In this document: in pieces, positions 51,109 to 55,760 of the stretch | Position numbering within the stretch: position 1 is the stretch's first letter | Layout: each line of letters begins with the position of its first letter | Assembly (NCBI RefSeq): GCF_004331995.1 | Contig: NZ_SJDT01000003.1 | Coordinates: 124,001 to 188,000 of the forward strand | Source of the DNA: Arcanobacterium bovis | GTDB taxonomy: Bacteria > Actinomycetota > Actinomycetes > Actinomycetales > Actinomycetaceae | Direction of reading: 5' to 3' | DNA length: 64,000 nt | Translations under genes and position numbers: made by a program | Notes under the pieces: generated by a model | Databases searched by the model: none | Told to the model about the DNA's origin: nothing | The model's input: the letters and a program-made list of their open reading frames with translations, nothing else

Positions 51109-52005
51109 TCAGCGATTAATTGAACGCGCCATTCGCGAAACCGTGTGTCGCTGCCCGCGAATCGCTTTGCTGAGCGCGAAGATATTTTCAACCGGAGCTA
51201 AGCCACCATAGCCGGAATCGCCAATATGCTGAATATCCACTCCGCACACCTTGTTTCGGATCGCAATATCAACGATTACTTCTGGCTGAGAACTTTCTTG
51301 ACTCGTACCTATCGCTGACATCACCAGCGCCCCAGCGCGGTGAGCCGCCAGCACCGCATCACGCAGCTCGACATCAGTGAAGCCAGGTACTGTACCCACC
51401 GCAGGCACGAGAATCACGTCAGCTCCGACGTCCACCAACGCTTGTACTGTTTGCGCATTAACGACGGGCTCATCAACAGCGGCTCCGTGCATCTTTCCAG
51501 CAATAATGAGTCCACTAAAATGTTCTTTTGCTATCTTCGTAGCATCGATGATAGCGCTATTAGTTACACCCGTGCCCGGATTGCCCGTAAAACATACGAA
51601 ATCTGCACCGAGCTCTTCCAAGCGCTGCAAGGTCTGCACATTTGCGGTGCGCCCCTGCGAAATATGTGTGCGTTCTTCGAGCATCGAGGCTTCGAAATCA
51701 ACAGGCTCGAGATTCACTCCGATTGGACAGCCCACTAGTTTATGCAGCTCATCCACAAAGTTCATCTGATCCTTGATCCCGTGAATTTGTGGGGAAAACA
51801 CGTCCACCAGATTGAGCAAAATCAGATCTGCGCCAAAAGCGTGCGCGATCTCAGCATTGGTCAAATCAGGCAGGCTCGGTTGATGCACCACAATATTTTC
51901 AGAAAGCACCACACGGCCTTCAGAAGCCTTAATGCTTTGCATAAGTTGAGCTGCATCCATCGCCAGTATTTCAGAAGAATTTGCGCTAATAAGCCGAGTT
52001 ACCAT
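51109..52005 (-). CDS. TIM-barrel protein, DUF7916-like
   Basis: The 298-residue protein looks like a PEP-mutase/HisA-type TIM barrel: GRVVLSENIVVHQPSLPDLTNAEIAHAFGADLILLNLVDVF at the N-terminus, a GADFVCFTGNPGTGVTN phosphate-type loop, LIIAGKMHGA and GADVILVPAVGTVPGFT. I recognise the group now called DUF7916, of unknown reaction; the phosphate-site signature suggests a phosphorylated or small organic-acid substrate. AAAGG precedes ATG 52005. No operon partner indicates the pathway. Confidence 0.72.
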   Translation of the reverse strand: MVTRLISANSSEILAMDAAQLMQSIKASEGRVVLSENIVVHQPSLPDLTNAEIAHAFGADLILLNLVDVFSPQIHGIKDQMNFVDELHKLVGCPIGVNLEPVDFEASMLEERTHISQGRTANVQTLQRLEELGADFVCFTGNPGTGVTNSAIIDATKIAKEHFSGLIIAGKMHGAAVDEPVVNAQTVQALVDVGADVILVPAVGTVPGFTDVELRDAVLAAHRAGALVMSAIGTSQESSQPEVIVDIAIRNKVCGVDIQHIGDSGYGGLAPVENIFALSKAIRGQRHTVSRMARSINR

Positions 52006-52056
52006 GAGAAGAACCTTTCTCTTGCGGTGAGGAATCCACCGTGAACAGTTTATAGT

Positions 52057-53283
52057 TTACGGAACTAACCACGCCGATGCTGCAACCACCGCAGCTTCTA
52101 GCCCCCGATCCAAAGTCGGCTGAAGGTCGGGAGCAAATGCTGGGTTGTGATTACCCGGCGCTGAATCTGGATCAGCAAATCCTCCCAAGCCCCAGAAAGT
52201 GTAAGGAACTCCCAAGGCTGACGGAATAATGGAGAAATCTTCCGATGCCGGAACTTGATCCATATCGTGGGTTTCGCCCGGAAAATACTCGTCAAAAGCC
52301 GCGCGCACCCGATGAGTGACTTCGGCGTCATTGCTGGTCAAAGGATACTCATCGTAATACGTAAATCGAGCAGGTTCAGGGCAACGCGCAGCTTCGCATT
52401 CGGCATTCACAACCCGTTCAATTGCTTCTTTGAGATGATTGGCCACGTCTTGATTGAAAGCCCGCGTATTGATCAGCAACTCGGCAGTTTGCGGAATAAT
52501 ATTGGACTTCGCTCCGGCATGCACTGCCCCGACCGTGAGTACCGCGCTATTCGATGCCGCAATTTCGCGCGAAACAATCTGTTGTAGCCGCGTAATAATA
52601 TTCGCAGCAAGTAGCACAGGATCCACGCTCAGCTCCGGCATTGAACCGTGAGAGCCACGCCCCGTTAGCTCTATTTTTAGCGAAAATGCAGCTGAAAGTA
52701 CCGCACCAACTCGCGTCCCCACGTGTCCGCCAGGCAAATTCGCCAAAACGTGTTGTCCGAGGTAAACATCGGCACGCGGAAGCTCTTGTGCGACGCCGTT
52801 TTCGAGCATGTCTCGAGCACCAGCAGCTATCTCTTCTGCCGGTTGGAAAATACCGATAAACGTACCTTGCCAGTCATTTTTGTGGGAATTTAAAGCTTGT
52901 AGCGCACCAAGCAAGCTCATGATGTGGAAATCATGCCCGCAAGCATGGGAAGTGCTCACAAGTGCGCCAGTACTTTCATCTTCCTGCACCGCATGAGAGG
53001 CATAGTCCTTACCCGATGTCTCCTTGATAGGCAAACCATCGATGTCCGCACGAAAAGCGACCACTGCGCCGTCGCCATTATTGATAGTGGCAACGATACC
53101 TGTGCGACCAATCCTGCGGTACGGTATCTGATAAGATTCCAGCTCTTCCACGATTTTCTGGCTAGTGAGTGTCTCTTGCATAGAAAGCTCGGGGTGTTGA
53201 TGGAAATACTTATACAGCTCTTCGCGCTGCGAACGAGTCGCATCGAGATCTGCCAAAATCCGACGAACGGCATCTATACCCAT
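52057..53283 (-). CDS. M20-family amidohydrolase (IAA-amino-acid / hippurate hydrolase type)
   Basis: The 408-residue metal-dependent amidohydrolase of the M20D group has HQHPELSMQE, AFRADIDGLPI, the metal-site TSHACGHDFHIMSLLGAL, FQPAEEIAAGARDMLENG and the dimerisation domain RGSHGSMPELSVDPVLLA. The ligand cysteine and histidines are present. Substrates of the group are N-acyl amino acids; this one is not predictable. GGGGAG precedes ATG 53283. It lies 52 bp from the TIM-barrel gene on the same strand, so co-transcription is possible. Confidence 0.93.
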   Translation of the reverse strand: MGIDAVRRILADLDATRSQREELYKYFHQHPELSMQETLTSQKIVEELESYQIPYRRIGRTGIVATINNGDGAVVAFRADIDGLPIKETSGKDYASHAVQEDESTGALVSTSHACGHDFHIMSLLGALQALNSHKNDWQGTFIGIFQPAEEIAAGARDMLENGVAQELPRADVYLGQHVLANLPGGHVGTRVGAVLSAAFSLKIELTGRGSHGSMPELSVDPVLLAANIITRLQQIVSREIAASNSAVLTVGAVHAGAKSNIIPQTAELLINTRAFNQDVANHLKEAIERVVNAECEAARCPEPARFTYYDEYPLTSNDAEVTHRVRAAFDEYFPGETHDMDQVPASEDFSIIPSALGVPYTFWGLGGFADPDSAPGNHNPAFAPDLQPTLDRGLEAAVVAASAWLVP

Positions 53284-53405: not shown

Positions 53406-55760
53406 CTAGACTTCGTTCAATGACGGCGCCACATGCTCATCCCAATACTCGCGTGTAGCAGCGCGCAAGGACTCGATATCGTCGTCATTATGCAATACAT
53501 AGTCTGCTACCTCTTCGCGTTCCTCGTCAGTAATCCGAGTGTCAAGACGTGCCCAAGCATCTTCTCGGGAAAGACCTTTCTCCTCCATCAAGCGCTCCAC
53601 GCGTCGTTCGACGGGTGCAGACACCGTAATCACTTGGTCAAAACGGCTCGCCAACCCCGATTCGACAAGGAGCGGCACGGTCACTACCGCAACGCTTTCT
53701 TCGCCGATTTCACGCGAAATGCGGTCAATCTCGTCGATGATTCGCGGATGCATGATTTCTTCAAGCCGCAATCGAGCCTCACGCGAAGCGAACACAAGCC
53801 GACCGAGCGCGCTACGATCCACTTCACCATCAGCTGAGACAATGTCCTCACCAAAGACTGCTCGGATTTCATCTTGCACTTGCTCGTCGTTCGTTAAGAC
53901 ATCTCGCGAGATTTCATCTGCGTCAATAACGACCGCACCGAGTTTCGCTAGCTCATCAGCAACCAAAGAAGCTCCGGCTGCCGCACCGCCAGTGACGGCG
54001 ATTCGCAGTTTTGGCATTCCCGCTTGGGCTTCGAGCACTGCTGCCGTCGTCGGGGTATGAGTCTCAAATTCGGGTTCGGTGCCAGGCTCGAACTCTGGAG
54101 AGATAACGAAACCTTCCACATCTTCGTCGGGATCTTCCGCGCGTCGTTCATACTCTTCAGCAGGAAGAACACGCTTCCACTGGCGCGTACGAATCGGCTT
54201 CGCTGCACCTGCGTCCTCACGCAATGCTTGGATAACCATCAGCATCTGCACGAACGTCATAAGAACCACTGGGAAACCGACCACAATAATCACTTCTTGA
54301 AGTGCGGTTAGACCATTCTCTCCAGCGGTGAGCAGGATCGAGGCACATACGCCACCAATGGAAAGTCCCCAGAACACCCGCTGCTTCAGTGGCGACAAAT
54401 CTTCATGACCATTCGCCATCGCGTCCATCACCAATGCGCCCGAATCAATCGAGGTGATAAAGAACAGAAGGACGACGACGAGCGCGAGCACCGCCGTCGC
54501 CTGATACCACGGGAAGCCGTGCAAAAACTGGAACAGCGCTGCTTGAACGTTTCCCTCGTCAACAATCGTCTTCGCGAGCGCGCCACCTGTGCCGGAAGTA
54601 GGAGCTGAAGCGCGATCCTGCACAACGGCGTTGTAGCCGTAGATTGCCATCCAGATCATCACGAAGATGCTTGGCACGCCCATCGTACCCAGCACAAACT
54701 CCCGAATTGTACGCCCTTTGGAAATCTTAGCCACGAACATTCCCACGAACGGCGCCCAAGTAACAGTCCAAGCCCAGTAGAACACAGTCCATTGGCCAGA
54801 CCATTGACCATTACCACCTAAGTCGTTAAAGAATGACAGCGTGGGCAGGTGCGAAATATACCCACCGATGGATTCCACCATCGCTCGCATTGTGCCCATT
54901 GTGGAGCCAAAAAGGAGCACAAAGATCATCAAGATGGTGGCAAGTACGATATTGATGTACGACAGGCGTTTGACGCCTTTGTCCATACCCGCGATCACAG
55001 ATCCAAGCGCTACACCAGTGATAATCGCCAAGATTAGAGCCTGTACCCAAGGAGCTACCGGGACTCCGAGCACATAATTTGCGCCCGAGTTGATCTGCAA
55101 CGCGCCAAAACCTACCGACACCGACAAACCGAACACGGTTGCGACAATCGCTAGAATGTCGATTATTTTGCCTACAGGGCCATGGATTCCGTCGCCGAGT
55201 AGCGGCTGAAAGGCCGAAGAAACGCGCGGCGGAAGTTTGCGCTTGTATGTGAAGTATCCGAATGCCAAGCCAGGGACGACGAAAATTGCCCACATATGCA
55301 GGGTAAAGTGGAAATTGGCAATCGCCATAGCATCAGACAACGCGCGATCACTGAAGGCCGCGGTACCCTCGAGCGGAGGCTTCGCATAATGAGTCATTGG
55401 CTCGGCGATGCCCCAGAACATCAGCACAGCGCCAACTCCGGCGGCAAACAGCATGCCAAACCATGCCACGCCTGAATACTCAGGTTTGGAATCGTCGTCG
55501 CCAATCTTGATGCGGCCATAGCGGGAGGCGGCGAGCACAAGCGAAAAAATCACGAGAAGCGTGACCGACAGGGTGAAAAACCAGCCGAGGTCGTAGCGGA
55601 TAAACGTGGCAAGATGCCCAAAGAATTTTTGCACCGGCCCTGGGAAAATCGCCATGAGCGCAGTAAACAGAATTACCACAAAGGCAGATCCAAAAAAGAT
55701 CCCAGGTGAAGTTCGTAGTCCCAGCAGGTCGTGTAAGCGTTTCGCAGTTTCTTTCATCAT
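53406..55760 (-). CDS. BCCT transporter fused to a degenerate dephospho-CoA-kinase-like domain
   Basis: A single 784-codon frame. Residues 1-525 are a 12-span betaine/carnitine/choline transporter: AAGVGAVLMFWGIAEPMTHYAKPP and the Trp-rich TM8 motif FYWAWTVTWAPFVGMFVAKISKGRTIREF. A charged linker (about 525-580, rich in E, P, D) follows. Residues 582-784 have the CoaE layout: nucleotide loop, VVIDADEISRDVL, IMHPRIIDEID, VVTVPLLVESG and RLDTRITDEEREEVADYVLHND. The Walker A reads GGAAAGAS (591-598) instead of GGIGSGKS, so the catalytic lysine is Ala597 and kinase activity is unlikely. The domain may sense CoA or nucleotides and gate transport. Confidence 0.9.
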   Translation of the reverse strand: MMKETAKRLHDLLGLRTSPGIFFGSAFVVILFTALMAIFPGPVQKFFGHLATFIRYDLGWFFTLSVTLLVIFSLVLAASRYGRIKIGDDDSKPEYSGVAWFGMLFAAGVGAVLMFWGIAEPMTHYAKPPLEGTAAFSDRALSDAMAIANFHFTLHMWAIFVVPGLAFGYFTYKRKLPPRVSSAFQPLLGDGIHGPVGKIIDILAIVATVFGLSVSVGFGALQINSGANYVLGVPVAPWVQALILAIITGVALGSVIAGMDKGVKRLSYINIVLATILMIFVLLFGSTMGTMRAMVESIGGYISHLPTLSFFNDLGGNGQWSGQWTVFYWAWTVTWAPFVGMFVAKISKGRTIREFVLGTMGVPSIFVMIWMAIYGYNAVVQDRASAPTSGTGGALAKTIVDEGNVQAALFQFLHGFPWYQATAVLALVVVLLFFITSIDSGALVMDAMANGHEDLSPLKQRVFWGLSIGGVCASILLTAGENGLTALQEVIIVVGFPVVLMTFVQMLMVIQALREDAGAAKPIRTRQWKRVLPAEEYERRAEDPDEDVEGFVISPEFEPGTEPEFETHTPTTAAVLEAQAGMPKLRIAVTGGAAAGASLVADELAKLGAVVIDADEISRDVLTNDEQVQDEIRAVFGEDIVSADGEVDRSALGRLVFASREARLRLEEIMHPRIIDEIDRISREIGEESVAVVTVPLLVESGLASRFDQVITVSAPVERRVERLMEEKGLSREDAWARLDTRITDEEREEVADYVLHNDDDIESLRAATREYWDEHVAPSLNEV

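Follow-up and report, generated by a model that had tools for sequence, protein, structure and literature searches.

A CoaE-type domain fused in frame to a BCCT transporter in five genera: a candidate non-catalytic module

Background

In this work we ask why a single gene of Arcanobacterium bovis encodes both a transporter of the betaine/carnitine/choline (BCCT) family and a whole domain of the dephospho-CoA kinase (CoaE) type, and what the second domain may do there. The gene lies in a 64,000-nucleotide stretch of the genome (GCF_004331995.1, contig NZ_SJDT01000003.1, positions 124,001 to 188,000 of the forward strand), here called the window. An earlier note, made from this sequence only, had taken the tail for a CoaE-like domain without its P-loop lysine, which might sense a nucleotide or CoA and regulate uptake, or might be a relic of an ancestral coaE, and had called the system undescribed. 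The last statement agrees with our search: no description of a BCCT-CoaE fusion was found in the literature covered, whose scope lay outside most subscription journals and the pages of domain-architecture databases.

The fusion gene and its domains

As the earlier note had it, one frame joins a BCCT transporter to a whole CoaE domain; the frame is open throughout and both Pfam matches lie far above their cut-offs. The parts of the gene, in window coordinates, are as follows.

53406..55760, minus strand: BCCT transporter-CoaE-like fusion gene, 784 amino acids, frame open for 784 codons
54213..55700, minus strand: BCCT transporter domain, residues 21-516 (Pfam PF02028, E 9.4e-164, 545.9 bits, model positions 1-485 of 485)
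54015..54212, minus strand: inter-domain linker, residues 517-582 (alignment of fusions)
53409..54014, minus strand: CoaE-like tail, residues 583-784 (Pfam PF01121, AlphaFold2 model and PDB sequence relatives)

The Pfam CoaE match (PF01121) covers residues 587-762 (E 6.2e-49, 166.5 bits against a cut-off of 27). The fusion protein reaches 480.1 bits on the BCCT profile TIGR00842 (cut-off 407.55), and the tail 133.2 bits on the dephospho-CoA kinase model TIGR00152 (cut-off 65.55); on the CoaE-type model PRK03333 the fusion protein scores 180.1 bits, below the equivalog cut-off of 215. The linker is conserved as well: at 25 of the 59 positions from residue 517 to 575, 35 or all of the 36 fusions agree. 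When the sequence upstream of Met582 was read by eye for an internal start at this codon, no convincing ribosome site was seen.

The best PDB sequence relative of the BCCT half is 8zw8, a trimethylamine transporter (E 2.8e-113), followed by the BCCT family transporter 8ybq and then by choline transport proteins and BetP entries. The tryptophan motif of TM8 is a hallmark of the BCCT family. In the BCCT half (window 54090-55760) it reads WAWTVTW, versus WAWWIAW in two PDB relatives, and its Thr is the consensus of a 28-row alignment that has the fusion protein itself among the rows; a BCCT subfamily with this Thr may carry a different substrate. At nine BCCT positions all 36 fusions share a residue that five close tail-less relatives lack, a weak signal with so few relatives. 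Among plasmid records, none covers 80% of the fusion protein in one place.

The tail has 6n39, 2if2, 4i1u and 12 other PDB entries as sequence relatives. Its AlphaFold2 model, built on an 11-row alignment with ordinary CoaE rows among them, has a pLDDT of 92.2 and a pTM of 0.84, so the domain is predicted confidently and the remainder of the CoaE fold appears well kept, as the earlier note had assumed.

Catalytic residues and the lid-helix tryptophan

The following positions of the tail are referred to below.

53967..53990, minus strand: P-loop GGAAAGAS, residues 591-598, with Ala597 for Lys
53916..53924, minus strand: DAD motif, Asp613 and Asp615 kept
53745..53750, minus strand: His671-Pro672, His present in the window tail
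53592..53594, minus strand: Arg723, equivalent of mycobacterial CoaE Arg140 (alignments matched by eye)
53553..53555, minus strand: Trp736 of the lid helix, fusion-specific, in 37 of 37 fusion tails
53535..53549, minus strand: lid RLDTR, residues 738-742, with Arg742 for Gln

The altered P-loop with Ala597 is read directly from the sequence. For the lid the earlier reading holds in part: residues 738-744 are RLDTRIT, in which the Gln is now Arg742 and the lid Arg738 is retained. Codon 597 is GCT in the window genome (G000) and in its sister genome G002, and since GCT differs from both lysine codons at all three bases, a single-base error does not explain the alanine. The frame runs open from one domain into the other, where the earlier note had considered a sequencing error or a stop.

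The tails were compared with 56 other CoaE rows, all actinobacterial and from one order. The counts below give presence in fusion tails, presence in other CoaE rows and the fewest changes on the tree, the last obtained with the trait columns retained in the alignment.

P-loop Lys: 24/36; 56/56; 3 changes
First Asp of DxD: 22/36; 55/56; 5 changes
Second Asp of DxD: 27/36; 56/56; 2 changes
HP His: 9/36 (lost in 27/36); 56/56; 2 changes
PLL Pro: 9/36; 56/56; 2 changes
Lid Arg: 14/36; 56/56; 2 changes
Lid Gln: 6/36; 56/56; 2 changes

In mycobacterial CoaE, Lys14 and Arg140 are reported to bind ATP, Arg140 also to stabilise the transfer, Asp32 to be catalytic and Leu114 to bind the leading substrate (PMC3019153). 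The equivalents of Asp32 and Arg140 are present in the window tail as Asp615 and Arg723 (numbers matched by eye). Tails of the window's genus have lost the Lys and the lid Gln and kept His and Pro, while those of g130, g66 and the Kocuria type have lost His, Pro and the lid Gln; Arg replaces the P-loop Lys in 8 of 13 g130 tails, and the Kocuria-type tails have lost the Leu114 equivalent in 12/12 and the Asp32 equivalent in 9/12. As judged from these alignments, catalytic residues have been lost repeatedly and by different routes across lineages. The change from Lys to Ala, whose fixation the earlier note wanted checked, is by the same reading local and no mark of the family: the residue is Thr in G001, the third fusion-bearing genome of the window's genus, and most fusion tails keep the Lys. 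The variation of ligand-facing residues among lineages argues against one common ligand.

What marks the family instead is the lid-helix tryptophan. Trp736 is found in all 36 fusion tails of the tree and in 0 of the 56 other CoaE rows; it is residue 154 of the tail and falls within helix 150-157 of the model, the lid helix. Also constant in 37/37 fusion tails are, among others, the P-loop glycines 591 and 596, Phe707, Arg723 and Ala735. A fold and a lid Trp conserved while ligand-facing residues drift, together with a conserved linker, are what one would expect if the tail were a structural module, one that gives the transporter trimer stability or order, or sets its membrane level, and senses no ligand. 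We regard this main rival to a regulatory role as rather unlikely, because the two glycines and Arg723 are invariant, seemingly beyond the needs of a pure scaffold, and because tail-less BCCTs exist within the same clade.

The separate coaE gene

The earlier note proposed a search of the genome for a second, intact coaE, and one is present: the window genome has two CoaE matches, the fused tail and L002, a gene of its own with the P-loop GGIAAGKS and 134.8 bits on TIGR00152 (cut-off 65.55). With L002 intact, CoA synthesis apparently does not need the fused domain. L002 (1159-2064) carries a C-terminal extension of about 100 residues, which evolves faster (dN/dS 0.308 versus 0.159). One genome of the window's genus, G004, given as 96% complete, has no CoaE match, likely owing to a gap in its assembly of about 130 contigs.

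Another reading would have the tail retain enzymatic activity, either as a genuine kinase in g133 or as one of altered chemistry elsewhere. In g133, six of seven fusion tails keep every motif checked (GGIASGKS, DAD, HP, PLL and RxxxQ). These six (L225, L226, L227, L229, L232 and L233) have an intact coaE directly downstream and perhaps encode a bifunctional transporter-kinase. As an account of the family we nevertheless find a retained enzyme highly improbable: the window tail lacks both the Lys and the lid Gln, the latter occurs in no fusion tail outside g133, and an intact coaE was also found in every checked genome with a fusion.

Distribution and gene order

A search of related genomes for the same fusion, also proposed earlier, found it in the window's genus and in four others. 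The fusion frame occurs in 3 of 10 genomes of the window's genus, in 11/11 of g130 (two with two copies) and in 2/2 of g66; among 395 genomes of the family of g130, it is present in at least 7/8 of g133 and at least 9/27 of g135, to which G645 of g135 is added with its broken tail frame. In an even sample of 396 genomes from the order, matches that span the transporter and reach the end of the tail occur in at least 6 genomes: three from the window's genus, one from g130 and two from g66. The order-wide and family-wide protein searches scored the two best candidates per genome. In total, 36 in-frame fusion genes were counted in five genera (G645 of g135 and two second copies included), drawn from 34 genomes or records; the tail frame of G645 is broken near residue 737.

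Among the 80 loci listed, Kocuria salsicia (L055) carries the fusion and K. atrinae (L057) has it in broken frames. As the K. salsicia rows are identical to those of G612, g135 is taken as Kocuria, and from this identity and the taxonomy of Kocuria we take f5, the family of g130, to be Micrococcaceae. In Rothia, among the loci listed, coaE and BCCT are separate neighbouring genes; the order in L058 is rpsA, a frame that we take to be YigZ-like, coaE, BCCT and uvrB. In g66 (L223) it is fusion, coaE and uvrB.

Outside the window's genus an intact coaE is the next CoaE-type frame downstream for 31 of 33 in-frame fusion genes, and in the remaining two (G565b and G573b) a second fusion gene comes first and coaE after it. 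Such proximity would suit a coupling in the reverse direction, in which a membrane-held pseudo-CoaE pairs with the adjacent active CoaE and adjusts CoA synthesis or its placement at the membrane, the more so as the coaE of g66 is from another lineage and adjacent all the same. We consider this improbable, since fusion and coaE are apart in the three fusion-bearing genomes of the window's genus and since adjacency elsewhere may only reflect an origin by tandem duplication.

Genes for an M20 amidohydrolase and a DUF7916 protein come after the fusion in G000 and G002, and a DedA gene lies past them; in G001, one flank of the fusion holds DedA genes and the opposite flank GNAT and GntR-type genes. 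The M20 amidohydrolase and DUF7916 genes lie just downstream in the window (51109-53283) on the strand of the fusion, with similar frames in G002, and are possibly tied to the substrate transported.

Several variants of the arrangement were also seen. Two fusion genes stand in tandem in G565 and G573 (L196, L197), and in G568 (L198) a tail-less BCCT copy adjoins a fusion. Kocuria palustris (L056) and two further loci (L242, L243) have a BCCT gene with a fusion-type linker end and no CoaE tail, and about 0.8 kb separates BCCT from coaE in genes of this type. A search behind them for a remnant of the CoaE tail matched the linker end only; they have either lost the tail or represent the pre-fusion form. 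In g132, G574:C1:1638430-1639524 matches part of the BCCT half (residues 103-484, 64% identity) and is a fragment or a broken copy.

Origin and transfer of the fusion

Trees were made for the tail and for the BCCT half by quick searches, with SH-aLRT as the one measure of support. In the tail tree, from which G645 (present in the 37-tail table) was left out and to which further CoaE rows were added from 10 loci chosen from the family search (8 passed the filter), the 36 fusion tails lie on one side of a branch with a support of 95. They fall inside a group (99) to which the neighbouring coaE genes of g130 and g133 also belong, and the nine coaE genes proper to the window's genus form a separate group (99). 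In the BCCT tree the 36 fusion halves also lie on one side of a branch (99), a single origin for which the comparison rows were one Kocuria row lacking the tail, four from Rothia and 12 more, with the tail-less copies of G780, G659 and G568 missing. The window's genus stands beside g130 and g66 in this tree (97). Six g133 rows group with the window's genus and g130 in the tail tree (91) and with Kocuria in the BCCT tree (90).

When the 12 CoaE rows of the window's genus were constrained together, the resulting tree was mildly rejected (p-AU 0.03); a tree in which the g66 fusion tails were made to group with the coaE that adjoins them was rejected strongly (p-AU 4e-40). A derivation of the fused domain from the coaE of the window's genus was set aside on its placement elsewhere in the tree, the p-AU of 0.03 being only a mild argument.

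These trees support a fusion that arose once, in Micrococcaceae-type relatives. A later transfer of the fused gene into the window's genus has moderate support from the same placements, and its transfer into g66 strong support. The simplest history would be a BCCT gene beside coaE, a tandem copy of coaE and then the fusion.

Selection on the tail

The pair G000 and G002 is the single measurable one in the window's genus, the two pairs with G001 being saturated at synonymous sites. For this pair the tail has a dN/dS of 0.075 (0.059 on a slightly different stretch), with non-synonymous differences at 20/456 sites versus synonymous ones at 62/150 (Fisher p 4e-26), as expected of the purifying selection that was to be checked. 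The values are 0.033 for the transporter, 0.026 for the linker and 0.159 for the first 205 codons of the genomes' own coaE. In 16 other computable pairs the tail dN/dS ranges from 0.087 to 0.304; it is below that of the adjacent coaE in 7 and above it in 9, and exceeds that of the transporter half in 12. All are simple Nei-Gojobori counts, and the linker value is undefined for one near-identical pair. These counts leave the tail clearly under constraint, roughly as tight as that on an active coaE and usually looser than that on the transporter.

That the tail is a relic of an ancestral coaE, or the product of an assembly error, can thus hardly be credited and was rejected on multi-genus conservation and purifying selection. 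The loss of catalytic residues and the frame break of G645 are all that speak for it; against it stand 36 in-frame genes in five genera, the low dN/dS of the tail, the confidently modelled domain and the invariant, fusion-specific Trp.

Proposed role and comparison with known systems

Our preferred reading, to which we give about an even chance, is that the tail is a non-catalytic cytoplasmic module recruited from the CoaE fold, probably regulatory, after a single fusion and transfer. In a Micrococcaceae-type actinobacterium, a coaE duplicate would have joined the 3' end of a BCCT gene in a single event, and the window's genus would have acquired the product later. The window tail probably does not work as a dephospho-CoA kinase, CoA presumably being made by the other coaE, and its CoaE fold would have stayed on as a part of the transporter in the cytoplasm, most likely with a regulatory task. 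It may still bind a ligand of the CoA pathway or a nucleotide, with no transfer of phosphate (binding need not be abolished by the change of Lys to Ala), and the lid helix with Trp736 would touch the transporter or a neighbouring tail. Several observations count against a regulatory module, among them the apparently intact catalytic motifs of six of the seven g133 fusions; the tail is also absent from K. palustris-type BCCTs, and outside the window's genus its dN/dS exceeds that of the adjacent coaE in 9/16 pairs and that of the transporter half in 12/16.

The C-terminus of BetP is a short extension and holds no enzyme-derived folded domain, unlike the fusion tail with its 202 residues of CoaE type. 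Like the fusion, BetP of Corynebacterium glutamicum is a BCCT protein, and its cytoplasmic ends are reported to regulate it (PMC6406002, PMC10710835). It is described as a homotrimer that forms without need of the C-terminal domain; an engineered monomer transports and has lost its regulation, probably through the terminal domains, and work on heterotrimers spoke against protomer crosstalk (PMC6406002). Mycobacterial CoaE is in turn reported to be in a trimer-monomer equilibrium, said to be unique to it, which dephospho-CoA shifts to the monomer and CTP opposes, and which is not shifted by ATP alone, CoA or CoA thioesters; its trimers were proposed to restrict the lid, and E. coli CoaE is given as monomeric in solution, with a crystal trimer tied to sulphate (PMC3123319).

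By analogy with these proteins, it is plausible that three tails on one BCCT trimer are brought together into a crown, whose state a ligand would alter and so set uptake. The specific form, in which dephospho-CoA, opposed by CTP, would switch the crown from closed to open and gate osmolyte uptake through the Trp736 helix, we hold to be unlikely. If true, a CoA precursor would control a transporter's gate, and an enzyme would have become a sensor step by step, with motif-intact (g133) and eroded versions alive together. A works-like model is offered by SbtA-SbtB and AmtB-GlnK, where, as described for the former, trimeric nucleotide-bound SbtB docks on trimeric SbtA (PMC10710835). SbtB and GlnK differ from the tail in being separate PII proteins of unrelated fold, and the tail is so far a candidate regulator.

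With CoaE proper (PDB 6n39 and 2if2, and the mycobacterial enzyme) the window tail shares the whole domain, DAD, HP, PLL and the Arg140 equivalent; it differs in lacking the P-loop Lys and lid Gln, in its fusion to a transporter, in the presence of a separate coaE and in the lid Trp736. Proteins of the CoaE-UPF0157 (PRK03333) type also combine CoaE with another domain (for UPF0157 see PMC2765170), but there an active CoaE precedes a partner that is no transporter. A further comparison is with transporters that have fused CBS, cyclic-nucleotide-binding, PAS and UspA domains, usually C-terminal, as listed in a review of transporter regulation; they are alike in being plug-in regulatory domains, and none of those named there is CoaE-derived (PMC10710835).

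Conclusions

Regulatory domains fused to transporters are a known theme, and what appears new, in the literature covered, is a CoaE domain as the C-terminal module of a BCCT transporter. The tail (window 53409-54014) is also a trap for annotation, as it passes the TIGR00152 equivalog cut-off despite its missing P-loop lysine; on its sequence we do not class the fusion tail as a working dephospho-CoA kinase. The genomes compared hold a natural series of separate coaE and BCCT genes, motif-intact fusions, eroded fusions and tail-less forms, and with this series at hand the change of an essential enzyme into a non-catalytic module becomes directly testable.
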